Shown: one piece after another, positions 10,780-30,351 of the stretch
Numbering within the stretch: position 1 is the stretch's first letter
Layout of the letters: each line of letters opens with the position of its first letter
NCBI GenBank assembly: GCA_016285265.1
Contig: JAEEQL010000016.1
Location: 1-33,835, forward strand
Direction: 5' to 3'
DNA from: Lachnospiraceae bacterium
GTDB taxonomy: Bacteria; Bacillota; Clostridia; Lachnospirales; Lachnospiraceae
Length of the DNA stretch: 33,835 nucleotides
Translations under genes and position numbers: made by a program
Notes under the pieces: model-generated
Seen by the model: only the letters and a program-made list of their open reading frames with translations
Told to the model about the DNA's origin: nothing
The model's database searches: none

Positions 10780-11970
10780 TCAGTCCTTTGAGATCAGTTT
10801 ACCGCCGCGCTTTGAAACGACATCAAAGATAACGGCTGCGAGGAGAACCAGACCTTTAACAACCTTCTGCATGTTCTGGTCAACTCCCATAAGTGACATA
10901 CCAAGGTTGATGGTTCCCATGAGAACCGCACCGATGATAACTCCGGGAACGGTTCCGATTCCGCCGTATGCCGAAGCACCGCCGATGAAGCAGGAACCGA
11001 TGGCATCCATCTCATAGTTCTGTCCGTAAGTGGGCTGTGCAGAGGTAAGTCTTGCGATGGTTACCATTCCTGCAAGTGCTGCAAGCAGACCCATGTTGGT
11101 GTATGCAAGGAAGTATACCTTGTTGGTATTGATACCGGAAAGCTTGGTAGCCTTCTCGTTACCGCCTACTGCGTAGAAGTAACGTCCGGTCTTGGTGCTG
11201 GAAGTAATGAAGCCGTAAATGATTATGACGAGAAGTACCCATACGAGAACGGTAGGAATACCCTTGTGCTGTGAAAGTCTGAATGAGAAAGCAAGGATAA
11301 CTGCGGAGATGAATACGAGCTTGCCCCAGAATGAAAGTGCTCCTTCAACCTCGTAGTGCTTCTTGAGTCTTGCTGCTCTGTTCTTGATCTGAAGTCCGAT
11401 GAAAAGAGCTGCGGCAATGGCACCTGCCACCATACATGTCATATTGAATCCGTTAAACTTGAAGATATCGGGGATATAACAGTTGGCACCGCCGCCGAAT
11501 ACATTTACAAATGTGGTGCAGTTCTTGACGGAGATGGTCATACCGTTGAGGACTACGTTGGAAAGACCTCTGAAGATAAGCATTCCGGCAAGAGTTACGA
11601 TGAAGGGAGGGATTCTTACAAATGCGATCCAGAAAGCCTGGAAAGCACCGATGAGAATACCGACGATAAGCATGATTATAACTGCCAGATACCAGGGCAC
11701 TTTGTAGGTGACCATAAGGGTTGCACCGACTGCACCGGTAAAGCAGACTACCGAACCGACGGAAAGATCGATGTTACCACCGGTCAGGATACACAGGAGC
11801 ATACCGGTTGCAAGAATGAACACGTATGCGTTCTGTGAGATAAGGCTGGATACGTTCATGGGAAGCAGAATGGTTCCCTTGGTAGCTACCGCGAAAAGTC
11901 CTATGACGAGGATCAGTACAATGATCATCGTATATTTCTTTACGAAATCAAGTGTTTTTGTTTTGCTCAT
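10780..11970 (-). CDS. mmsB: Multiple-monosaccharide ABC transporter permease (MmsB/GguB type)
   Basis: The membrane subunit of a sugar importer, 396 residues from the chosen ATG. The pattern ILTGGNIDLSVGSVV early and the EAA-like region near GGNEKATKLSGI are typical of the ribose/xylose-type permease family. GASAYGGIGTVPGVIIGA follows, as in the same family. An extra segment of about 60 residues around 200-260 (KNRAARLKKHYEVEG onward) is the usual feature separating GguB/MmsB from RbsC. About ten helices are expected. The in-frame TTG at 11985 is set aside because the ATG at 11970 has GGAG seven bases upstream. It follows mmsA by 22 bases and is the last gene before the terminator. Confidence 0.92.
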   Translation of the reverse strand: MSKTKTLDFVKKYTMIIVLILVIGLFAVATKGTILLPMNVSSLISQNAYVFILATGMLLCILTGGNIDLSVGSVVCFTGAVGATLMVTYKVPWYLAVIIMLIVGILIGAFQAFWIAFVRIPPFIVTLAGMLIFRGLSNVVLNGMTISVKNCTTFVNVFGGGANCYIPDIFKFNGFNMTCMVAGAIAAALFIGLQIKNRAARLKKHYEVEGALSFWGKLVFISAVILAFSFRLSQHKGIPTVLVWVLLVIIIYGFITSSTKTGRYFYAVGGNEKATKLSGINTNKVYFLAYTNMGLLAALAGMVTIARLTSAQPTYGQNYEMDAIGSCFIGGASAYGGIGTVPGVIIGAVLMGTINLGMSLMGVDQNMQKVVKGLVLLAAVIFDVVSKRGGKLISKD

Positions 11971-11992
11971 TTTATTCTCCTTCAATCCTTCC

Positions 11993-13519
11993 TTAAGCAG
12001 TTTTGATTATGTGAGACATGATTATTTCCTGACTTGCTTCGCTGCCCTTAAGTTCGGCAACCATCTTTCCTTCGTTCATGACGTAGATCCTGTCACACAT
12101 ACCGAGTATCTCGGGCATCTCGGAGGATATCATGATGACTGATTTTCCTGCCGCAACAAGGTCGTTCATAATGCAGTAGATCTCGTACTTTGCACCGACA
12201 TCGATACCTCTTGTCGGTTCATCAAGGATCAGGACATCGGGATCCGTGTACATCCACTTTGCAAGAAGGACTTTCTGCTGGTTACCGCCGGAAAGATTAC
12301 CTACGTTCTGTTCTACGGTCGGACACTTGATACCCAGCTTTTCCCTGTATTCGGATGCAACGTTGTACTCTTCGTCTTTGTCGATTATTCCGTTCCTGCT
12401 GACACCGTTAAGATTTGCAAGTGTGGTATTTATCTTGATGGGATTTGAAAGGATAAGTCCGTTACCCTTTCTGTCCTCTGTAACATATGCAAGTCCGTGT
12501 GCTATGGCATCGCTTACGGAGTTAAGCTTTACTTCCTTACCGTCTATGTAAAGCTCGCCGGAGATGTTCTCTCCATAGCTCTTTCCGAAAAGGCTCATTG
12601 CAAGCTCTGTTCTGCCCGCACCCATGAGTCCGGAGATGCCGACGATCTCACCCTTCCTTACATTGAAGTTGACATTATCGACAACCTTTCTCTCCGAATA
12701 GAGAGGATGATATGCAGTCCAGTTCTTAACTTCCAGCTTGATGTCAGAGATATGGGGCTCACGCTTCGGGAATCTGTCGGACATTTCACGTCCTACCATT
12801 CCCTTGATGATCCTGCTCTCCGAGAAGTCATCAACCTGCTTGTCAAGGGTTTCGATCGAGCAGCCGTCTCTGATGACTGTGATCTTGTCCGCAACATATG
12901 ATACTTCGTTAAGCTTATGGGAAATGATTATCGAGGTCATTCCGTCCTTCTTGAACTTCAGGAGAAGCTCGAGAAGTGCTCTGGAATCCTCTTCGTTAAG
13001 TGATGATGTAGGCTCATCGAGAATAAGAAGCTTTGCGTTCTTGGCAAGTGCCTTTGCTATCTCTACAAGCTGCTGCTTACCAACGCCTATATCTTTGATA
13101 AGAGTCTGCGGCGATTCCTTGAGTCCTACAATATCAAGGTACTTCTTCGCAAGCTCGTAAGTTTCATTCCAATTGATAACGCCGCCGTTAGCGCGTTCGT
13201 TGCCGAGGAACATGTTCTCGGCGATGGTCATATAAGGAACGAGGGCAAGTTCCTGGTGGATGATTACTATCCCGCAGCCCTCACTGTCTTTAATGGTATG
13301 GAAATTACATACTTCGTTGTTATATACAATATCACCCTCGTATGATCCGTACGGATATATTCCGCTCAGAACATTCATGAGAGTTGACTTTCCCGCGCCG
13401 TTTTCTCCGACAAGAGCGTGAATCTCGCCCCTTTCAACCTGAAGCTGAACATTGTCGAGGGCCTTGACTCCGGGGAATGTTTTGGTTATATTCCGCATTT
13501 CAAGTATATAGTCAGCCAA
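11993..13519 (-). CDS. mmsA: Multiple-monosaccharide ABC transporter ATPase (MmsA/GguA type)
   Basis: A 508-residue tandem ATPase of the ribose/xylose/galactose class, which powers sugar import with MmsB. The first domain has Walker [10 protein letters not shown] (about 38-46) and Walker [12 protein letters not shown]. The second has the degenerate Walker [10 protein letters not shown], the signature LSGGNQQ and Walker [14 protein letters not shown] degraded P-loop in the second half is normal for this class. The start is TTG, chosen because AGGAGG lies seven bases upstream and the next methionine would cut the first beta strand. A hairpin separates it from chvE, and mmsB follows after 22 bases. 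Confidence 0.95.
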
Positions 13520-13563
13520 CTTAATTCCTCCTTCGCATACACGCTGCTGTCTCTACCCCATAA

Positions 13564-13589
13564 CACAGGCGGGGGTTAACCCGCCTGTG
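13564..13589 (-). other. Intercistronic hairpin between chvE and mmsA
   Basis: A perfect 10-base-pair stem (CACAGGCGGG and its complement) with a six-base loop lies between the binding-protein stop and the ATPase start. On the minus strand it has no T-run after it (TTATGGGG), so it is not a standard terminator. Such hairpins in importer operons usually shield the 3' end of the binding-protein message from decay and so raise its yield over the ATPase and permease; that role is inferred here. Confidence 0.7.
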
Positions 13590-13609
13590 CCAAAAATATG
13601 AACTAATGA

Positions 13610-14761
13610 TTACTTAAGCTGATCCTCGGTGTAGTAACCTGAATCGATGAGGAGCTCTTTGTAGTTGTTGATGTCAGCAAATACGGGCTCGCAGAGGTAT
13701 GAAGGGATGATGCCGGTTCCGTTGTCATAAGTTTCCTTATCGTTAACGGGAGCCTCGCCGCCCTTAAGGATTGCGTCAACCATCTCAACAGTCTTAGCTG
13801 CAAGTGTACGGGTATCCTTGAAGATGGACATTGACTGCTTGCCTGCGATCATGTTCTGTACGCTTACGATATCGCAGTCCTGGCCGGTGATGATGGGCCA
13901 AGCGCCGGTGTAGTTGTTCTCAAGAGAGGTGGTAACACCCTGTGCGGTAGAATCGTTGGAAGCCATAACAGCGTCAAGGGTAGTTCCGTCTGAATAGTAA
14001 GCAGAGATGATAGCATCAAATCTGTTCTGTGCATTCTCGGTTGCCCAGTTAGCGGTTGCGCAGGTCTCGAAATCGGTCTGGCCGGATCTTACTACAAGCT
14101 GGCCGTTGTCGATGTAGGGCTGAAGAACTTCCATAGCGCCGCCCCAGAAGAATCTTGCGTTGTTGTCTCCGGGATCACCGGTGATGAGCTCGATGTTGAA
14201 GGGGCCTGCGCCGCTTGCAAGTCCGAGCTGCTGCTCGATGTACTGTCCCTGCTTGATTCCTACGAGCTTGTTGTCGAAGGTAGCATAGTAGGTAACTGCA
14301 TCGGAGTTCATGATGAGACGGTCATAAGCGATAACGGGAATGTTATTCTCTTTTGCCTGCTCAAGAACGGTTCCGAGTGAATCGCCTTCGATGGAAGCGA
14401 TAACAAGTACCTTGCATCCTGAGTTGATCATGTTCTCGATCTGAGAAACCTGAGTGGGAACGTCGTTTGATGCATACTGAAGATCTACTTCGTATCCAGC
14501 TGCCTCGAGCTGTTCCTTCATGTTAGCGCCGTCCTGGTTCCATCTCTGGAGATCCTTGGTAGGCATTGCAACGCCGACTTTGATCGCGCCGTCATCTGAA
14601 GGTGCGGGAGTGGTAACATCGTCTCCGCCGTTATCAACTACCTGCTGCTGATCATTGCCTGTCTGGCCGCCTGTAGTATCATTGCCGCTCTGTCCGCATC
14701 CTGCAAGGACTGCGGTAAGCATTGATGCTGCAAGCAACAAACTTAAAAGTTTCCTTTTCAT
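13610..14761 (-). CDS. chvE: ChvE-type multiple-monosaccharide-binding lipoprotein
   Basis: The extracellular sugar-binding subunit of the importer, 383 residues. A lipoprotein signal ends in LAGC with the lipid-bearing cysteine at 22, followed by a flexible linker rich in Q, G, D and T (to about 55). The type I periplasmic-binding fold begins at KVGVAMPTKDLQRW. The segments SQIENMINSGCKVLVIASIEG and VIAYDRLI, then YATFDN and TGQDCD, are those of the ChvE/XylF group that binds aldopentoses and related hexoses. The exact sugar cannot be read from sequence. A GGGAG site lies before the ATG. First gene of the importer operon. Confidence 0.93.
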   Translation of the reverse strand: MKRKLLSLLLAASMLTAVLAGCGQSGNDTTGGQTGNDQQQVVDNGGDDVTTPAPSDDGAIKVGVAMPTKDLQRWNQDGANMKEQLEAAGYEVDLQYASNDVPTQVSQIENMINSGCKVLVIASIEGDSLGTVLEQAKENNIPVIAYDRLIMNSDAVTYYATFDNKLVGIKQGQYIEQQLGLASGAGPFNIELITGDPGDNNARFFWGGAMEVLQPYIDNGQLVVRSGQTDFETCATANWATENAQNRFDAIISAYYSDGTTLDAVMASNDSTAQGVTTSLENNYTGAWPIITGQDCDIVSVQNMIAGKQSMSIFKDTRTLAAKTVEMVDAILKGGEAPVNDKETYDNGTGIIPSYLCEPVFADINNYKELLIDSGYYTEDQLK

Positions 14762-14804
14762 AATTTTTGTTCTCCCTTTCTTTTAGGAAAAATTTTTGTT
14801 GCAC

Positions 14805-14833
14805 GTATAAAGTAACACGGACCAAGTGGAATT
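14805..14833 (-). promoter_or_regulatory. Candidate activator-dependent promoter of the chvE operon
   Basis: TTATAC (14810-14805) is a fair -10 box, but the segment 17 bases upstream (AATTCC) is a poor -35 box. It lies about 45 bases before the chvE start and just after the terminator of the sensor operon. A weak -35 suits activation by the YesN-type regulator encoded next door (inference). Confidence 0.3.
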
Positions 14834-14875
14834 AATTTTTATGGGTCTTGAAATTTTTTTTATGATTATGGCATC

Positions 14876-14916
14876 AAAAAAGCCGTACCGGATATTTTTT
14901 GTCATCCGGCACGGCT
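14876..14916 (-). terminator. Terminator of the sugar-sensing operon
   Basis: A 13-base stem with one mismatch (14881-14893 with 14904-14916, AGCCGTaCCGGAT) is followed by six T on the minus strand. It lies about 20 bases beyond the stop of the second binding protein and separates the sensor operon from chvE. Confidence 0.85.
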
Positions 14917-14935
14917 GTAAGCAATAATTTACCCT

Positions 14936-15970
14936 TTATCTGGCATACAGATAAACGTCTTCTTTAAGGTGGAATCCGCTGTTTATAATGACTTCATCCA
15001 TATTTTCGGCAGTTACGGCTATGGGATCGAGTCCTATATAGGGTATGTCAAAGCTTCCGTCATTTATTGTGGTTATATCGTCTCCGGTAAGTTCCTCGCC
15101 TCTTGCAAGGGCAATCGCACATTCCGCCGCGCGCTTTGCGAGCCTTTCAAACGGCTTATATACCGTCATCGTCTGCGTGCCCTCAACTATTCTCTGACAC
15201 GCCTCAAGATCCGCATCCTGGCCGACCACGGGTATCTCTCCCGCAAGCCTCTGGACCGAAAGGGCCTGGATAACCTGACCTGCAAGGTTATCGTTCCCAC
15301 ACATTATCGCATCGACATCCGCAACGGTCTCGGGATGACTGTATATGTAATCTCCCGCTATTTCCGCTCTCCAGCCGTCGCAGTGGATGGAATCTACTAT
15401 CTCCATCCTGTATTTTGCACAGACATCCCTGAATCCGGCTTCGACCAAAGGTACATTATTGTCGGTGGGCGAACCGCCGAGCATGAGAACCTTTCCGCCC
15501 TGAAGTCCGTTTCTGAGGAAAGCTTCCGCCATAAGCTGACCTACCATATAGTTATCGAAAGTTATATACAGATCGACATTCGAATCCGTTATAAGTCTGT
15601 CGTAGGCGATTATCTTTATGCCGGCATTCCTTGCTTTTTCAACCTGCTCCCTGAGGGATTCGGAATCAATGCAGACGATGACTATGACATCGACACCTTT
15701 ATTAATGAAATACTCTATCTGTTCCTTCTGCTTTTCGATATCGCCGTTTGCATTCTGCACATTTACGGTCGCACCGAGTTCCTTTGCGGTGGATACGAAT
15801 ACGTCCCTGTCTCTCTGCCATCTTTCGATGACGAAAGAGTCAAAACTCATTCCGATCTCAATCTGGTCCTCTCCCTGCGACGCATCGGATGTCGTCTCGC
15901 CGGGTGTTCCCGAACAAGATGCCAAAAGCAGAAGTGCGGATAAGATTATTGCCGTGATACTTCTCTTCAA
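14936..15970 (-). CDS. Second XylF/ChvE-like sugar-binding lipoprotein
   Basis: A 344-residue substrate-binding protein with a short lipoprotein signal (LLASC, cysteine 19) and a short polar linker. The type I binding fold follows: IEIGMSFDSFVIERWQRD, then VIVIVCIDSESL, IIAYDRLI, ITFDNYMVG and VVGQDADLEACQRI. It is clearly related to the ChvE protein encoded downstream but diverged. It starts with TTG directly after the TAA of the response regulator, with GAGGG as SD; this start is required for the signal peptide. Because it lies in the kinase operon and not with the ATPase and permease, it may deliver ligand to the sensor or be an alternative binding protein for the importer. Confidence 0.88.
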   Translation of the reverse strand: MKRSITAIILSALLLLASCSGTPGETTSDASQGEDQIEIGMSFDSFVIERWQRDRDVFVSTAKELGATVNVQNANGDIEKQKEQIEYFINKGVDVIVIVCIDSESLREQVEKARNAGIKIIAYDRLITDSNVDLYITFDNYMVGQLMAEAFLRNGLQGGKVLMLGGSPTDNNVPLVEAGFRDVCAKYRMEIVDSIHCDGWRAEIAGDYIYSHPETVADVDAIMCGNDNLAGQVIQALSVQRLAGEIPVVGQDADLEACQRIVEGTQTMTVYKPFERLAKRAAECAIALARGEELTGDDITTINDGSFDIPYIGLDPIAVTAENMDEVIINSGFHLKEDVYLYAR

Positions 15971-17554
15971 TTATTTACCCTCTCTGTATTCCGTAGGTGT
16001 CACTCCTACATTTTTCTTAAATGTCTTACTGAAATAATTGGGATCCGAATATCCGGATCTTGCGCAGATCTCCTTCATGGAATACTGCGTGGTACTGAGA
16101 AGCTCCTTGGCTTTTTCTATCCTCAGCTTGGTAAGATAATCGATGAAGTTCTCACCCGTTCCTTCCTTGAATATCCTGCTCAGATAATAAGAGCTGATAT
16201 TAACTTCGCGTGATACATCCTCAAGTGTAATGTTGAGAGTATAGTTCTTCTCTATGTATTTCTTTGCGGCTTCTATCGCATCGTTGGAGCTTTCCTCACG
16301 CTTGGTCGAAATGTTCCTGCATGAGAAGATTATCCTGTCGGAGAACCAGTTCCATAAGCTCTCGGGATCGTCAATTCCCATAAGCGTGGGAAGATAATCC
16401 CTGCGGTTTGAGATGCTGTAAACCATTCCGCCGCTACTGTATGATATATGTTCGGCGCGGAGTGCGAACTCAAGTATCTTGAGCCTGATGTCCATGATAT
16501 CCCCGCCCTTTATATATTCGAAGTATTCCTTTGCCGCACTTATAGCGGCGTCGGTTCTTCCTTTTTCAACTTCCTCGAAGATCTTCTTTTCGATATCGAC
16601 GGGATAGTTTTCGGAATACTCGCATCCGATGGGAAGGTCATCCGCGTGTGCAACGGTATTGGTGGTAAGAAGAAGGGCGTTGATCGCATCACGGTATGAA
16701 CTCTCCATATCCCTGATCTTCTCAACCCTTCCCATACCGATCCTGAAAGCTATGTCGGTCTTTTCCCTGAGCTTATGCGCAAGATCCCTTGCCTTGGAGA
16801 TCACGTTTACTCTGTCGTTATAATCCATCGAAGGGTCCGTAAAAGGAATGAGCACGGCGATCTTGTTGCTCATTACCGAGCCGACGATACCTCCGAAATA
16901 ATCCTTGATGTAATTTCTTATGTCGTGGTAATGCTGCTGAAGCTTGACACCGGAGCCGACCGCGTTGGTCATATGGTTTCCTTCCGCGGCATCGCCGGAA
17001 ACGATGACCATCATATATCCGTAGTCTTCGTTTATCTCCAGCATTGTCTTGTAGTTTTCGATATCCTCATCGAAATATTCGTGGAAGAGGATATTGTAGA
17101 TAAGTCCGTTCTCAAGTATGGGAATGACGGTCTCGAGTTTTTCCTTTACGACGAGATCGTTGGTTCGCCTGTTCTTCTCCTCATCGACCATTGCCATGGC
17201 CTTTTTGATCGCGGAGATCATCAGGTTCTTGTCCATGGGCTTGGTGATATACTCGATCGCACCGAGTTTGATCGCTTCCTGCGCATAATCGAACTTATCA
17301 TATGCACTCATGATGATGAAGATGATATTATCGTTGCCGGAACGGATCTCCTTCATCGCATCGAGCCCGTTAATGCCGGGCATCTGGATGTCCATTATCG
17401 CGATATCGGGATGGTAGGTTTCCGCAAGCTCGATCACGGAGCGTCCCGTCTTTGCAGACTTGGTCTCACAGTCACTTCCGAATTCTTTTTCAATTATGAA
17501 CTTAAGCGAATCGATGACTATTCCTTCGTCGTCCGCAAGCAAGATCTTGTACAT
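15971..17554 (-). CDS. YesN-type response regulator with AraC output domain
   Basis: A 527-residue regulator. The receiver domain (1-125) has the acidic pair D8-D9, the phosphate acceptor D55 in IMDIQMPG, and the conserved threonine/lysine region ending ITKPMD. A long middle region (about 140-410) has no motif I recognise. An AraC/XylS double helix-turn-helix at about 428-525 (LEDVSREVNISSYYLSRIFKEGTG, then YSMKEICARSGYSDPNYFSKTFKKNVG, each split by its turn) would bind DNA. It starts two bases after the kinase stop, with its SD in the kinase's last codons. It most likely activates the chvE importer operon, by analogy with other YesMN systems next to sugar transporters. Confidence 0.94.
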   Translation of the reverse strand: MYKILLADDEGIVIDSLKFIIEKEFGSDCETKSAKTGRSVIELAETYHPDIAIMDIQMPGINGLDAMKEIRSGNDNIIFIIMSAYDKFDYAQEAIKLGAIEYITKPMDKNLMISAIKKAMAMVDEEKNRRTNDLVVKEKLETVIPILENGLIYNILFHEYFDEDIENYKTMLEINEDYGYMMVIVSGDAAEGNHMTNAVGSGVKLQQHYHDIRNYIKDYFGGIVGSVMSNKIAVLIPFTDPSMDYNDRVNVISKARDLAHKLREKTDIAFRIGMGRVEKIRDMESSYRDAINALLLTTNTVAHADDLPIGCEYSENYPVDIEKKIFEEVEKGRTDAAISAAKEYFEYIKGGDIMDIRLKILEFALRAEHISYSSGGMVYSISNRRDYLPTLMGIDDPESLWNWFSDRIIFSCRNISTKREESSNDAIEAAKKYIEKNYTLNITLEDVSREVNISSYYLSRIFKEGTGENFIDYLTKLRIEKAKELLSTTQYSMKEICARSGYSDPNYFSKTFKKNVGVTPTEYREGK

Positions 17555-17556
17555 GA

Positions 17557-19035
17557 TTAATTGTCTCCGCCTTTTTTGAGATAGATCGTAAATTTGGTTC
17601 CCTTGCCCTCACCCTCACTCGATATGTCGAACACATCCTCGTTCTCGGAAAAGAGCTTGAGTCTCGCTATAACATTATCCATACCGATGCCGTTGGATTC
17701 TTTCTTTTCGGGATCGGGCTGCTGACCGTTCATAAGCTTTTCAATGGTATCCTCGCTCATTCCGATGCCGTTGTCCTCGATCCTTATGCAGGCATAATCA
17801 TCCATCGGGTAAACGCTGAGCTTGATCCTGCCCTCTCCGAGCATATCCCTTATGCCATGGTTGACACAGTTTTCGACAAGAGGCTGAAGGATCATACTCG
17901 GCATCTTTACATTAAGAAGAGAACTATCGATTTCCTTTTCAAAAATGATATCGCCGGAAAAACGCACATTCAGAATGTATATATAATTGTCGACCAGCTC
18001 CAGTTCCTCGCCGACTGTGACCGTCTGGAAGCCTTTCTTAACATTGTATCTGAAAAACTCTGCCATGACGCGAACGTATTCGCTTGTCCTGTCGGCACCC
18101 TCGAGCATTGCAAGCTGCGCGCCCGCATTGAGCGTGTTGAAGAGGAAGTGCGGATTTATCTGTGACTGAAGATACTTAAGCTGTGCATCCTTGAGATGCG
18201 CCTCCATCAGAAGCTCCTTTTCCTTCAGCTGTCTCTCGGTCTCCGCATTTTCCCTGACCTGTCTGATATAGTTCTGTATACTTACAACCATCTGGTTGAA
18301 TGCACGCGTAACGACACCTACCTCATCTTCGGATTCAACCGTCAGGGGTGCGACATCGAAATTTCCCTTACCGACTTCATCCGCCCTTCCGGCAAGAAGC
18401 TTCAAAGGTCTGATCAGATTTGCGGTAAGCCTTATGATAAGAAGTGCGTTGACAATAATAACGGCAATGAGGATCATGTTTCCGCTCGTCTCGAATGTCT
18501 TGAACGCAGATATCATCTCTCTGTAGTTCTCGGAGTTTTCCTTGAACTGCTCATTATTAAGGCTGTAGATATATGTATTGATATAGCTGTAAAGCTTGGT
18601 GGCCTCTTCATAATGACTTCTGTATTTCTCGACATTTCTTCCGCGCTTTGCCTCGATGGTCTCACTGACCTCGGATAGATATTCCGAACTCATGTTGCGG
18701 ATGGAATATTCCATTCTGTCGGGAAGGCTTCCGGTCACTTCCGCAGACAGTGCTTCAGCCTGATCGGAATAGATCTGAGCGGAGCGGTAATACTCCTCGA
18801 GCGAATCACTCGTCTTCGCATTGAGGTATTCGGTCATCGCTTCCTGAACATTTCCGAGCGAAACGGAAAGCTCGTTCAGTCTCATATTCTCCTTATAGAC
18901 ATTGTCTATACGTCCGCTCATTATATTGATACCGGCCAGGAGAACGATATTGATGACGAACACGAAGAGGTTCGCGATAAGTGATATGGCTGTCATTTTT
19001 ATCTGCAGCGAAAGGTTTCTGAACCGTGTGATCAC
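17557..19035 (-). CDS. YesM/LytS-type sensor histidine kinase
   Basis: A 492-residue membrane kinase. Helix one is at about 13-38, an extracellular helical sensor region at 39-185, helix two at 186-206 and a HAMP linker at 206-258. The His_kinase motif INPHFLFN has the phospho-accepting H296, and an HATPase domain follows with VENCVNHGI (N box) and DNGIGM. The extracellular part is helical and lacks a sugar-binding fold, which fits a kinase that senses through a separate binding protein. Start GTG, overlapping the previous stop (GTGA) and preceded by AAGGAGG. Partner of the response regulator immediately downstream. Confidence 0.95.
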   Translation of the reverse strand: MITRFRNLSLQIKMTAISLIANLFVFVINIVLLAGINIMSGRIDNVYKENMRLNELSVSLGNVQEAMTEYLNAKTSDSLEEYYRSAQIYSDQAEALSAEVTGSLPDRMEYSIRNMSSEYLSEVSETIEAKRGRNVEKYRSHYEEATKLYSYINTYIYSLNNEQFKENSENYREMISAFKTFETSGNMILIAVIIVNALLIIRLTANLIRPLKLLAGRADEVGKGNFDVAPLTVESEDEVGVVTRAFNQMVVSIQNYIRQVRENAETERQLKEKELLMEAHLKDAQLKYLQSQINPHFLFNTLNAGAQLAMLEGADRTSEYVRVMAEFFRYNVKKGFQTVTVGEELELVDNYIYILNVRFSGDIIFEKEIDSSLLNVKMPSMILQPLVENCVNHGIRDMLGEGRIKLSVYPMDDYACIRIEDNGIGMSEDTIEKLMNGQQPDPEKKESNGIGMDNVIARLKLFSENEDVFDISSEGEGKGTKFTIYLKKGGDN

Positions 19036-20078
19036 GGAGCACCTCCTTCCTGCAGATCTTCCCTGTCTTTGGTTATGATGGATATTCCAGCAGTCGAATA
19101 CTGGTTGGTGTATCCGTAATCAAAATACTCCGTGAGCGCATCTATGCTTGAAACGCCCATCTGGGAAGTGTCAGCCGATATCGTAGCGTATATAACGCCC
19201 CTGTCGATACCGTTAAGGATTACTTCCGAATCATAGTATCCGAGGATGTCTACAAGACCTACTTCATTGTAGTCGACAACCATCTGATATACCGCGACCG
19301 TATCAAGCTCTCCGAGACATACCACTATCTCGGGGAGTGTACTTCTTTCCCTGAGAAGAAGACCTTTGATCGATTCCTCTGCGGAATATTCATTTGTGGA
19401 ATCCACGGTATATGTCGAGATCTCGATGTTTGGATGAAGTGCTCTTGTCTCTTCGCTTTCTCCGTCAATCGCTTCCTGAACGGCACTGAGAACGACATTC
19501 TGTCCGGTACTTACGGATCCCGCATCGACAAGTATCACGGCATCTATCGTATCCGTCGAATACGCTCTTTCCGTCGCAAGGCGGAGGATAAGTTCACCGT
19601 AAAGCTTTCCGAGATCGTTATTACTGATACCGACAAAGCTGAGTCTGTCAGAGGATGTATTATCCGAATAAAGGGTAACGACTCCTATGCCCCTTGATGC
19701 GGCGGTATTTATGAGATCGGTCATCTGTTCGCTTTCATCGGCGGAAACTATTATTCCGTCCACACCGGATGCTATGGCGATCTCCATAAGCTCATATTTG
19801 GAATAATCCCTCGACAGATTCTCGGAGATCATTTCGACATAATCACCGTGCTCCTCGGCGGAAGCCCTTGCCGCCGCATATACGGACTGCCAGAAAGAAG
19901 AATCCGAATTATCGGTGATCATCGCATAATAATGACCGTAGGGCACTTTTTCCTCAGCCGATCCGAACTTCCGGCTGTAAGCGATAAAGTTAACGACCAG
20001 CGCGCCGGTGAGAGCAATTATCACCGCCGTAGTGATCATGATCACTATTGAATTTAAGGCCTTGCCTTTTCTTTTCAA
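19032..20078 (-). CDS. Membrane-anchored sugar-binding sensor protein (XylFII-like)
   Basis: A 348-residue type I binding protein. A single N-terminal helix (about 10-33) is followed by no lipobox and no clear cleavage site, so it should stay anchored with the binding domain outside. The fold starts at YYAMITDNSDSSFWQSVY and continues through GVDGIIVSADES, VVTLYSDN, FVGISNND and VVCLGELDTVAVYQ. Start TTG with GGAGG six to seven bases upstream. It overlaps the kinase gene by four bases. This arrangement matches the described clostridial XylFII-LytS-YesN xylose sensor, in which an anchored binding protein contacts the kinase. The ligand here is not known. Confidence 0.88.
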   Translation of the reverse strand: MKRKGKALNSIVIMITTAVIIALTGALVVNFIAYSRKFGSAEEKVPYGHYYAMITDNSDSSFWQSVYAAARASAEEHGDYVEMISENLSRDYSKYELMEIAIASGVDGIIVSADESEQMTDLINTAASRGIGVVTLYSDNTSSDRLSFVGISNNDLGKLYGELILRLATERAYSTDTIDAVILVDAGSVSTGQNVVLSAVQEAIDGESEETRALHPNIEISTYTVDSTNEYSAEESIKGLLLRERSTLPEIVVCLGELDTVAVYQMVVDYNEVGLVDILGYYDSEVILNGIDRGVIYATISADTSQMGVSSIDALTEYFDYGYTNQYSTAGISIITKDREDLQEGGAP

Positions 20079-27915: not shown

Positions 27916-28545
27916 TCAGAATCCGAGGTCATCATTAACCAGTATCACATGGATCCTTCCCTCATGTCTCGAGTATCTCGTGATAAGGATCTGGCAGCAT
28001 ATGGTATCCGGGGATTTGCAGTTCATGCAGGAGCCCGTCTCCGAGCAGGGAGTCTTCAGACCGAATCTCTGGGCATTTATGGGCGCAGCGACATTTCTGG
28101 CCCTCTTCATGGCGGAATCAACGTCCTTGCAGACCTTGTTCATTCCGACGATGAAGACCACCTTTTTGGGGCCCTGGGCGATCATGGAAACCCTGTTTGA
28201 ATTTCCGTCAATATTGATGAGAACGCCGTCCTCAGTCATCGCATTGGTGCTTGCAAGGAAAACATCGGCATCATAGGAATCCATCATTGCGGATCTCTTG
28301 TCAGCCACGGCATCCCTGTCGATGAAGCGGTAATTGCCGTTCTTTACGGCATCCACAAGACCGATCTCGTGGGCGCTCATTGCACCTCCCATAGCCACGG
28401 TCGAACCTTCGGGAATGAGCTCGAGTGCCTTTTTGAGAGCTTCGGCTTTATCTGCGGCATAGTACCCCGTCATATTGCGGGATTCGAGCCCCCCTATGAC
28501 CTTCCGGGCGAGCAGTTCGTTTCTCTTTGTGATGTTCTCGTTCAT
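27916..28545 (-). CDS. LUD-domain (lactate-utilisation-like) protein
   Basis: A 209-residue protein of the LUD/DUF162 group (LutC-related fold). The glycine-rich region GSTVAMGGAMSAHEIGLVDAV (split by a turn) and the segment ASTNAMTEDGVLINIDGNSNRVS are typical. Near the C terminus a cysteine cluster (CSETGSCMNCKSPDTICCQ) could hold an iron-sulfur centre or zinc, a feature of the short stand-alone branch. The family is linked to lactate oxidation only in its LutABC form; lutA and lutB are not here, so the real role is open. ATG with GGAG. It is divergent from the LacI-UxaC fusion across 186 bases. Confidence 0.86.
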   Translation of the reverse strand: MNENITKRNELLARKVIGGLESRNMTGYYAADKAEALKKALELIPEGSTVAMGGAMSAHEIGLVDAVKNGNYRFIDRDAVADKRSAMMDSYDADVFLASTNAMTEDGVLINIDGNSNRVSMIAQGPKKVVFIVGMNKVCKDVDSAMKRARNVAAPINAQRFGLKTPCSETGSCMNCKSPDTICCQILITRYSRHEGRIHVILVNDDLGF

Positions 28546-28639
28546 ATTATTCTCCTTTCACCGGACCGGCTACCTGTTTATGATATACAAATTCGTATGT
28601 CATGTCGAATTAATTAGTTATTAACTTAAAATTAAGCCC

Positions 28640-28668
28640 TTGAAAATGCCTGTTATTTTATTTATAAT
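28640..28668 (+). promoter_or_regulatory. Promoter of the LacI-UxaC fusion gene
   Basis: TTGAAA (28640-28645), 17-base spacer, perfect TATAAT (28663-28668). Transcription should begin near 28675, inside the operator at 28668-28681. The leader is about 57 bases and contains ATTAT.....ATAAT, a weak hairpin near 28701-28715. Confidence 0.8.
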
Positions 28669-28681
28669 GTAACCGCTTTCA
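28668..28681 (+). promoter_or_regulatory. cre/LacI-family operator on the transcription start of the fusion gene
   Basis: TGTAACCGCTTTCA fits the palindromic cre consensus TGWAANCGNTNWCA at every position. It has the central CG expected for a LacI/GalR-family site that the hinge helix enters. It begins on the last base of the -10 box and covers the start point, a position that blocks transcription when bound. It could be read by CcpA or by the fusion protein itself, whose recognition helix is very close to that of CcpA. Confidence 0.75.
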
Positions 28682-28731
28682 TGCAAAGAGAGCGCCGATA
28701 ACATTATTTTTCATAATATACGGAGGCAGAA

Positions 28732-30351
28732 GTGAAAGAAAGCAACCTCACCATATATGATATATCAGAAAAGGCCGGCGTATCCATCGCCACGGTCTCC
28801 AGAGTCCTCAACAATTCGGGTTCCGTCAGTGAAAAGACCCGGAAAAAGGTAATGGACGCCATCAACGATACCGGCTACACTCCCAATGCTTTCGCAAGAG
28901 GGCTGGGACTCAATTCAGACAAAAAGTCAGTAAAGGAATTCATGGATGATGAATTCCTGCTTGATAATGCCACGGCATCAAAGCTCTACCACGACTATGC
29001 CGAAAAAATGCCGATCCTCGATTATCACTGCCATATCTCTCCCAAAGAGATCGCAGAGGACAGAAGGTTTGACAATATCGCGCAGGTCTGGCTCGGCGGT
29101 GACCATTACAAATGGCGCTTTATGAGAAGCTGCGGCATCGAGGAAAAGTACATAACCGGCAAGGCATCCGACCACGATAAGTTCATCAAGTGGGCCGCGT
29201 GTCTCGGAAAGGCAATCGGTAATCCTCTCTATCACTGGAGCCACCTTGAGCTTCAGAGATATTTCGATTTCCACGGACATCTGTGCGAAGACAATGCCGA
29301 GGAGGTATGGGAGCTCTGCAACAAAAAGCTTGCGGAGCCGGATATGAGCGCAAGGGGACTCATCAAAAAGAGCGGTGTCACCCTCCTTTGCACCACAGAC
29401 GATCCCATCGACGATCTCCGCTGGCATAAGCAGATCAGGGAGGATTCCTCTTTTGACGTAAAAGTCCTTCCCGCATGGCGTCCCGACAGGGCCATGAACA
29501 TCGAAAAGCACGACTACAAGGATTACCTCAAAAAGCTCGCTTCGGCCGCCGGCGTCGCCAAGATCAAAACCTGGGAAGATCTGAAGACGGCACTCAGGAG
29601 AAGAATGGAGTTCTTCAGGGAGCAGGGCTGCGTGGTCTCCGATCACGGACTTGAATTCCTTATGTATTATCCCGCCAATGACGAAGATATCGAAGCGATC
29701 TTTGCAAAGAGACTTTATAACATGCCCGTTTCAAAGGAAGACGAGTATATGTTCAAGACCGCATTCATGACATTCATGGCGTGCGAATACGTAAAGGCAG
29801 ACTGGACTATGCAGCTCCACTACGGATGCAAGAGGGACAACAATACCGCAATGTTCAAGTCGATCGGTCCCGATACCGGTTTCGACTGCATCAACAACCA
29901 CACACCTTCCGACCAGTGTGCGAACTTCCTCGATTCGCTTGAAAGATTCGGAAATCTTCCGAGAACGATCCTCTACTCTCTCAATCCGATAGACAACGCA
30001 TACATCGGAACGATAATCGGATGCTTCCAGGATTCCACCGCAGTCGGCAAGATCCAGCAGGGAAGCGCATGGTGGTTCAACGATCACATTCAGGGAATGA
30101 CAGATCAGATAAAGTCGCTTGCAGCTCTCGGAAATCTCTCGGGATTTGTCGGAATGCTGACAGACTCAAGATCGTTCTTAAGCTACACGAGACACGAGTA
30201 TTTCAGAAGGATACTCTGTAATATCATAGGTGACTGGGTCGAAAAGGGAATGTTCCCCGAAGACTACAAGATACTCGGCAAGATAGTCGAAGACATCTCA
30301 TACAACAACGCGGTAAGATACTTCAAGTTCCCGCTCGGGGATAAAAAGTGA
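28732..30351 (+). CDS. uxaC: LacI-type DNA-binding domain fused to uronate isomerase (UxaC)
   Basis: One unbroken frame of 539 residues. Residues 6-62 are a full LacI/GalR DNA-binding head: [21 protein letters not shown], turn, [19 protein letters not shown] and the hinge helix NAFARGLGL. From about 66 to 539 it is a complete uronate isomerase, which turns glucuronate or galacturonate into the keto-sugar. Seen are the metal-binding HCH (99-101), [71 protein letters not shown] and the ending NNAVRYFKF. LacI proteins normally carry a sugar-binding domain; here the enzyme takes that place. GTG start with GGAGG six bases upstream. Monocistronic, with no other uronate gene nearby in this window. 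Confidence 0.93.
28932..28944 (+). other. Internal SD and ATG at the fusion junction
   Basis: AAAGGA (28932-28937) lies four bases before an in-frame ATG (28942-28944, codon 71). This is close to where a normal UxaC begins ([14 protein letters not shown]). It could be a leftover of the ancestral free-standing gene, or could still make an enzyme-only product. The spacing is a little short for strong use. Confidence 0.4.

Follow-up and report, generated by a model that had tools for sequence, protein, structure and literature searches.

Can the enzyme for a sugar acid take the place of the repressor that once controlled its gene? This question is raised by a single open reading frame in the window, i.e. 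the whole 33,835-nucleotide stretch of DNA analysed in the current work, which starts with GTG at 28732, ends with a stop codon at 30351 (+ strand) and encodes 539 amino acids, combining the DNA-binding head of a LacI repressor with a uronate isomerase (UxaC). The features on which the argument depends are as follows.

28640..28668, + strand: promoter TTGAAA-17-TATAAT, agreeing with 11 of 12 consensus positions, hexamers identical in all five fusions
28668..28681, + strand: putative LacI-type operator TGTAACCGCTTTCA on the -10 box (pattern match and conservation)
28722..28726, + strand: Shine-Dalgarno sequence GGAGG of the fusion (read directly from the sequence, aligned in five fusions)
28732..30351, + strand: LacI-head/UxaC fusion gene, 539 amino acids (open reading frame and Pfam; five genomes)
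28750..28887, + strand: LacI helix-turn-helix, residues 7-52 (Pfam PF00356, 70.4 bits)
28882..28905, + strand: hinge helix, approximately residues 51-58 (helix 51-57 in the AF2 model; invariant in five fusions)
28915..28929, + strand: junction linker, residues 62-66 (variable sequence, constant length of five residues in 5/5 fusions)
28930..28932, + strand: codon that stands where uxaC originally started, GTA in the window, native start lost (alignment with unfused relatives)
28933..30324, + strand: uronate (glucuronate) isomerase domain UxaC (Pfam PF02614, profile positions 2-464 of 464; aligned to 3iac)

Both parts of the protein are complete with respect to their Pfam profiles, PF00356 being matched over its full model (1-46 of 46, residues 7-52; 70.4 bits against a cut-off of 27) and PF02614 over positions 2-464 of 464 (residues 68-531; 670.9 bits against a cut-off of 25), while the NCBIfam glucuronate isomerase family NF002794 is matched with 613.6 bits (cut-off 387) and a match to HTH_3 (19.5 bits) stays below its cut-off of 23. 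No match to Peripla_BP was obtained in the fusion with Pfam, i.e. the periplasmic-binding-like effector/dimerisation core is absent. Among proteins of known structure, the nearest in sequence is the glucuronate isomerase 3iac (residues 67-532, E 5.1e-165), to which the HCH, WRPD, QLHxG and TDSRSFLSY motifs of the fusion align, these being the motifs which we take to be catalytic in UxaC. These results agree with the initial annotation, which had described a LacI helix-turn-helix and hinge joined in one frame to a full-length UxaC with its motifs in place, the enzyme occupying the position of the sensor. The segment PNAFARGLG of the hinge is common to the four unfused LacI heads aligned, and the hinge helix presumably ends at the leucine equivalent to Leu56 of LacI. 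The linker reads SDKKS in four fusions and TPGRP in the fifth (from strain AC2028), so that its length is kept and its sequence is wholly different. A single-chain AF2 model, which is modest in confidence (mean pLDDT 76.7; range over five models 63.2-76.7) and silent on the pairing of heads, displays three helices of the helix-turn-helix, the hinge helix at residues 51-57 and the enzyme from residue 67 onward, with pLDDT below 50 at residues 59-63 between hinge and enzyme.

The fusion is present in five genomes from a small set of rumen bacteria, namely the window genome, three ruminant metagenome-assembled genomes (L032, L033 and L035), in which it is 97-99% identical to that of the window, and Lachnospiraceae bacterium AC2028 (L034), in which it lies on a 621-kb scaffold and is 92% identical. 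Since synonymous divergence in the enzyme part ranges from 0.15 to 1.01 per site among the ten gene pairs, the five fusion genes are not copies of one error. An assembly or frameshift artefact, for which the 190 contigs of the window assembly might speak, is ruled out with near certainty by independent assemblies, as the junction is common to five genomes in homologous yet diverged sequences, and four of these genomes are named records that differ in source, the 621-kb AC2028 scaffold belonging to one of the four; the initial annotation had listed a junction error, and likewise absence of the fusion in all relatives, among the findings that would undo its reading. AC2028 is named among mapped genomes in PMC9562222, and a culture of it may be available given that its genome carries a strain-level name.

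Across genomes, for which the initial annotation had suggested a search for the LacI plus UxaC architecture, the fusion was found in 5 of the 31 genomes of the genus, all 31 of which have a UxaC match, and in no others among the matches listed; the five fused census genomes correspond, by contig position, to the window genome and L032-L035. With residues 1-130 as query against 392 order-level and 398 phylum-level genomes, a match running from residue 1 or 2 to 130 was obtained, among the matches listed, only for the window genome and AC2028 at the level of the order and only for the window genome at the level of the phylum, the next-best rows starting at residue 66 (123.7 bits, order) and at residue 60 (109.8 bits, phylum); matches being listed best first, weak fusions lower down are possible. 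A LacI-head profile applied to 20 candidates, picked by eye from the search rows for an early start (residues 11-60) or a long frame, detected a LacI head in frame with UxaC in 0/20 and a separate LacI frame nearby in 3/20; another long uxaC frame (L007) is likewise without a LacI head. Of four pattern matches in viral contigs none was a relative, and the best 10 of 1116 matching plasmid records start at query residue 47 or 67.

The origin of the fusion can be read from its relatives. Among 111 loci checked, in which seven fused loci represent the five genomes (the window and AC2028 loci having each been entered twice), many unfused loci have uxaC immediately preceded, in the same orientation, by a LacI gene, mostly of 330-400 amino acids. 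Within the genus, 30 loci comprise 5 that are fused, 14 in which lacI immediately precedes uxaC in the same orientation, 9 with no lacI in the flank retrieved (two of which have shortened flanks) and 2 in which a LacI gene is otherwise arranged; G646, which gave no more than a fragment of the enzyme, preceded by a separate LacI frame, was excluded from this count and from the tree. In the enzyme tree the five fusions form one clade with full support (100/100) within a 16-member group, and the other 11 members (11/11) have lacI directly upstream of uxaC, with frames of 349-388 amino acids. The LacI neighbour in one of these unfused relatives (L036:4958-5983) has the full LacI architecture, with a helix-turn-helix and a PBP-like core, and residues 2-65 of the fusion are 78% identical to it. 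The fusion tracks the neighbour LacI to 'ARGLGLN' just past the hinge and, after the five-residue linker, uxaC from its first codons. Therefore, as head and enzyme match two neighbouring genes and the break lies just past the hinge, the sensor core was lost through a deletion in cis, and on this alignment the head of the fusion is a remnant of the neighbouring repressor gene, a point absent from the initial annotation. Such a deletion within an autoregulated lacI-uxaC operon would have removed the whole sugar-sensing core of LacI and spared the helix-turn-helix and hinge, leaving them in frame with uxaC via the linker. No close intact copy of the old repressor was detected in the five fusion genomes (four of which are 76-92% complete), where it is matched closely by the fused head alone (78-81%), other LacI-family hits reaching at most 37%.

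The DNA upstream of the fusion gene retains the site at which the old repressor is expected to have acted. The putative operator TGTAACCGCTTTCA is palindromic with a central CG, and its first base is the last base of the -10 box. It is exact in four fusions, the fusion in L035 having TGTAAACGCTTTCA, a form with one change which is also present in unfused relatives. When the five fusions are aligned, the operator is identical in 13 of 14 columns and promoter plus operator in 40 of 42, compared to only 12 of 40 columns in the stretch from the operator to the Shine-Dalgarno sequence; upstream of the promoter (28590-28639) the figure is 40 of 50, so that operator conservation is not unique in the intergenic region. 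In the 11 unfused members of the group, the lacI promoter carries this site with 0-2 mismatches, starting 6 bp (ten members) or 7 bp (one member) after the -10 box, whereas it overlaps the -10 box by one base in 5/5 fusions, so that in the fusion lineage it has moved into the promoter by approximately 7 bp. Consequently, the operator geometry relative to the -10 box was not simply inherited. Three unfused genus members outside the group have weaker sites, with 2-3 mismatches and other arrangements. The degenerate pattern TGTAANCGNTTNCA has one match each in the window and AC2028 genomes, both at the fusion's own promoter, although sites more degenerate than these exact matches may be present elsewhere; in seven genomes it has 1-5 matches each, always with one at this promoter, and the reversed-pattern control has 0-2. 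As the number of matches is near chance, the telling evidence is the place and the conservation of the operator and not its count. A shared regulon was searched for in the uxuA regions of AC2028, L190 and the unfused L191 and in a LacI region of the window genome (L192), and none of these regions holds a site with fewer than 2 mismatches from TGTAACCGCTTTCA.

Several observations were made alongside. Comparison of the window (28640-28681) with L159-L169 gives the appearance, from the shift of about 7 bp, of a promoter re-tuned in the fusion lineage. The conserved stretch 28590-28639 has an AT-rich block and may belong to the divergent LUD-domain gene (27916-28545, - strand) located between secA and the fusion; by eye, a similar-looking frame, for which NCBIfam returned no family, lies beside the AC2028 fusion and is absent from the unfused locus L043. 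In L036 a palindrome TGTAAGCCCTTACA is located approximately 190 bp upstream of lacI, between lacI and divergent genes (L036:1720-4777, - strand) that encode a tagaturonate reductase and a dehydratase of the altronate/galactarate type; this palindrome may be a second operator of the old repressor, and similar second sites are listed for L037, L041, L042 and L050, whereas none within 250 bp is listed for AC2028. Elsewhere in the window (10780-20078, - strand) are genes for a BPD_transp_2-type ABC permease, two periplasmic binding proteins, a sensor kinase and an AraC-type response regulator.

The operator might serve another regulator, for instance as a CcpA-like cre site, with the head being kept for folding or expression. 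The site also fits the general LacI/CcpA-type consensus, and the genome encodes further LacI-family proteins. We nevertheless regard this reading as quite improbable, given that there is one site per genome in the window genome and AC2028, unlike the many loci of a global regulator, that in the 11 unfused members of the group it is at the promoter of this very LacI that the site occurs, and that the invariant residues of the head span nearly the whole helix-turn-helix and hinge.

This last point leads to the head itself, on which purifying selection is strong. Between the window and L035, residues 5-60 differ by 23 synonymous and 0 non-synonymous changes, approximately 71 non-synonymous changes being expected under neutrality (binomial P ~8e-15), and between the window and AC2028 by 15.5 synonymous to 3.5 non-synonymous changes; these are simple Nei-Gojobori counts, and the sequence pairs are not independent. 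The enzyme domain is under similar constraint (omega 0.02-0.05). Across the five fusions nearly the whole helix-turn-helix and hinge is invariant, and residues 30-31 are Gly-Ser in the fusion clade compared to Ser/Asn-Asn elsewhere, a difference that counts against retained binding. From these counts, DNA binding by the head seems to be still selected. That the head is a harmless leftover without DNA binding could be argued from the loss of the core that normally pairs LacI heads and from the youth of the fusion, confined to 5 of 31 genomes of one genus, but such a remnant would be expected to have accumulated the missing non-synonymous changes, and promoter and operator would not be expected to persist next to 40 bases that have drifted; we consider it an improbable explanation.

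A different division of labour would be obtained if the gene gave two products, a minor full-length regulator and a free, working UxaC started at Met71. In four fusions AAAGGAATTC-ATG ends at residue 71, an AAGGA-like sequence lies just upstream in the window, and an enzyme started there would lack just a few native N-terminal residues. Against this, the native uxaC start, which is ATG or GTG in six unfused relatives, is GTA or GTC in 5/5 fusions, and the native Shine-Dalgarno sequence is likewise missing in 5/5. Moreover, the AAGGA-like sequence is spaced only shortly from the ATG, AC2028 has GGC in place of GGA, and the ATG is also present in 12 unfused enzymes aligned, which argues that it was not selected as a start. 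Internal initiation is thus judged unlikely.

The conserved motifs and the profile scores indicate that the fused domain is probably a working isomerase, and no second UxaC match was found in the window genome (91.8% complete). With regard to its substrate, no close tagaturonate reductase was detected in the five fusion genomes, three of which gave matches of 26-27% identity and two none at E 1e-10. In AC2028 a mannonate dehydratase (460.7 bits, cut-off 191) adjoins the weak tagaturonate reductase match, a protein of the polyol-dehydrogenase type which scores below the cut-offs for fructuronate and tagaturonate reductases and which, judging from its neighbour gene, may be a fructuronate reductase. 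By eye, the uxuA region of L190 resembles that of AC2028. As no close tagaturonate reductase was found and the mannonate dehydratase is present in AC2028, glucuronate is the likely substrate of the fusion. In two fusion genomes, a frame of AraC/cupin-type appearance was noted by eye close to the uxuA cluster (L189:1797-2726 and L190:2418-3335), suggesting that later steps of the pathway may be under different control.

Self-repression is well motivated by these results, i.e. by an inherited fusion, a lost sensor, a constrained head and an operator at the gene's own promoter. The suggestion of the initial annotation that the enzyme may act as its own repressor has therefore gained in substance with respect to sensor, head and operator, while repression itself is inferred. 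On balance we consider it probable that the protein is an autorepressor enzyme, made in cis by loss of the sensor, which binds the operator on its own -10 box and limits its own level. LacI heads act as pairs held together by the core. In the fusion, the oligomeric body of the enzyme would supply the association formerly given by the LacI core, and two heads of one enzyme oligomer would bind the operator and shut RNA polymerase out of the -10 box. Repression would become stronger as the enzyme level rises, and the enzyme would in this way cap its own amount. The three solved UxaC entries (3iac, 1j5s and 2q01) list three chains each in the PDB, no more than a hint that UxaC is trimeric; if the enzyme is a trimer, its body would fit a two-fold operator awkwardly. 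A literature search for the oligomeric state returned nothing usable among the papers listed.

A further step, more speculative, is that uronate in the active site would weaken DNA binding and so act as the inducer of the enzyme that converts it. By sequence, this step, which the initial annotation had proposed as a change of oligomer or hinge state upon binding of glucuronate or galacturonate, is indistinguishable from autorepression that needs no ligand. UxaC has a single substrate and catalyses a reversible reaction; its pocket might for this reason stay occupied for as long as uronate lasts. The active isomerase would then be an inducible repressor, its active site having replaced the LacI sensor core and its occupancy by glucuronate or fructuronate loosening the paired heads, a proposal which we advance tentatively as a whole and which, if repression occurs at all, we regard as about evenly balanced. 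The experimental counterpart of such a protein is Q1, a synthetic fusion of an XRE helix-turn-helix to an active shikimate kinase, which bound DNA, repressed its promoter and kept catalysis; shikimate relieved the repression in vitro but failed to do so in vivo, its authors blaming catalysis in the presence of both substrates (PMC3602430). The absence of induction in vivo is a warning against the inducible version of our model.

The strongest competitor is a variant of the main model in which the protein is blind to its ligand: self-repression would be proportional to its concentration, no sugar would have an effect, and induction would have been lost in favour of a fixed low level of the enzyme. 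This has a substantial claim, though one we would place short of even. The whole sensor is gone with no other close copy found, and a linker that is SDKKS in four fusions and TPGRP in AC2028, together with the low-confidence residues 59-63, argues against finely coupled allostery; Q1 retained an active enzyme and was not inducible in vivo (PMC3602430). On the other hand, a catabolic enzyme that is permanently repressed would be costly, and the linker length has been kept, which allows for coupling when it is considered that removal of the linker of Q1 abolished its response to shikimate in vitro (PMC3602430).

Should the inducible reading be correct, the fusion would be a natural, recent and still catalytic counterpart of the laboratory-made Q1, with its unfused state kept in sister species of the genus. 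The states before and after the event are found within one genus and at one promoter, where operator and head have been kept and the sensor is gone; discussions of how regulators arise from enzymes usually draw on ancient proteins in which the change is complete, or on engineered chimeras. The idea that the active site of an enzyme doubles as the sensor of its repressor is made testable, and a structural puzzle is posed by a two-fold operator that would be read by heads on a body whose solved relatives list three chains.

Compared to known systems, the fusion is nearest in its two halves to its own relatives. The upstream LacI/GalR repressor of these has a head 78-81% identical to that of the fusion and the same operator at its promoter, but carries a PBP-like sensor/dimerisation core where the fusion has the enzyme. 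With respect to UxaC (PF02614; 3iac, 1j5s, 2q01), the domain of the fusion is full-length with conserved motifs, to which a 66-residue N-terminal DNA-binding head and linker have been added and from which the native start codon has been lost. In literature searches, based mainly on listings, no paper on a LacI-UxaC protein was found, in keeping with the remark in the initial annotation that no characterised protein of such a design was known to it. BzdR, which PMC3602430 describes as an enzyme fold turned regulator, a natural protein without activity, resembles the fusion, as does Q1, in linking a DNA-binding head to an enzyme fold. Both combine an XRE head with a shikimate-kinase-like domain, whereas the fusion, by Pfam, combines a LacI head with UxaC; BzdR is inactive and Q1 is a laboratory construct, whereas the fusion occurs naturally and its UxaC domain shows the conservation of an enzyme. 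Although the parts of the fusion are ordinary, the way in which they are combined is not, nor are an origin that can be traced and an operator that has been kept. PutA, BirA and NadR are trigger enzymes, in which a catalytic and a DNA-binding domain in one protein control its own pathway. In the fusion, catalytic and DNA-binding domains both appear, from their sequences, intact and under selection. Enzyme and regulator are one protein in PutA, BirA and NadR, as is proposed for the fusion, but these do not employ LacI heads, and in the fusion, in contrast to them, the step from a separate repressor is still visible in living relatives.
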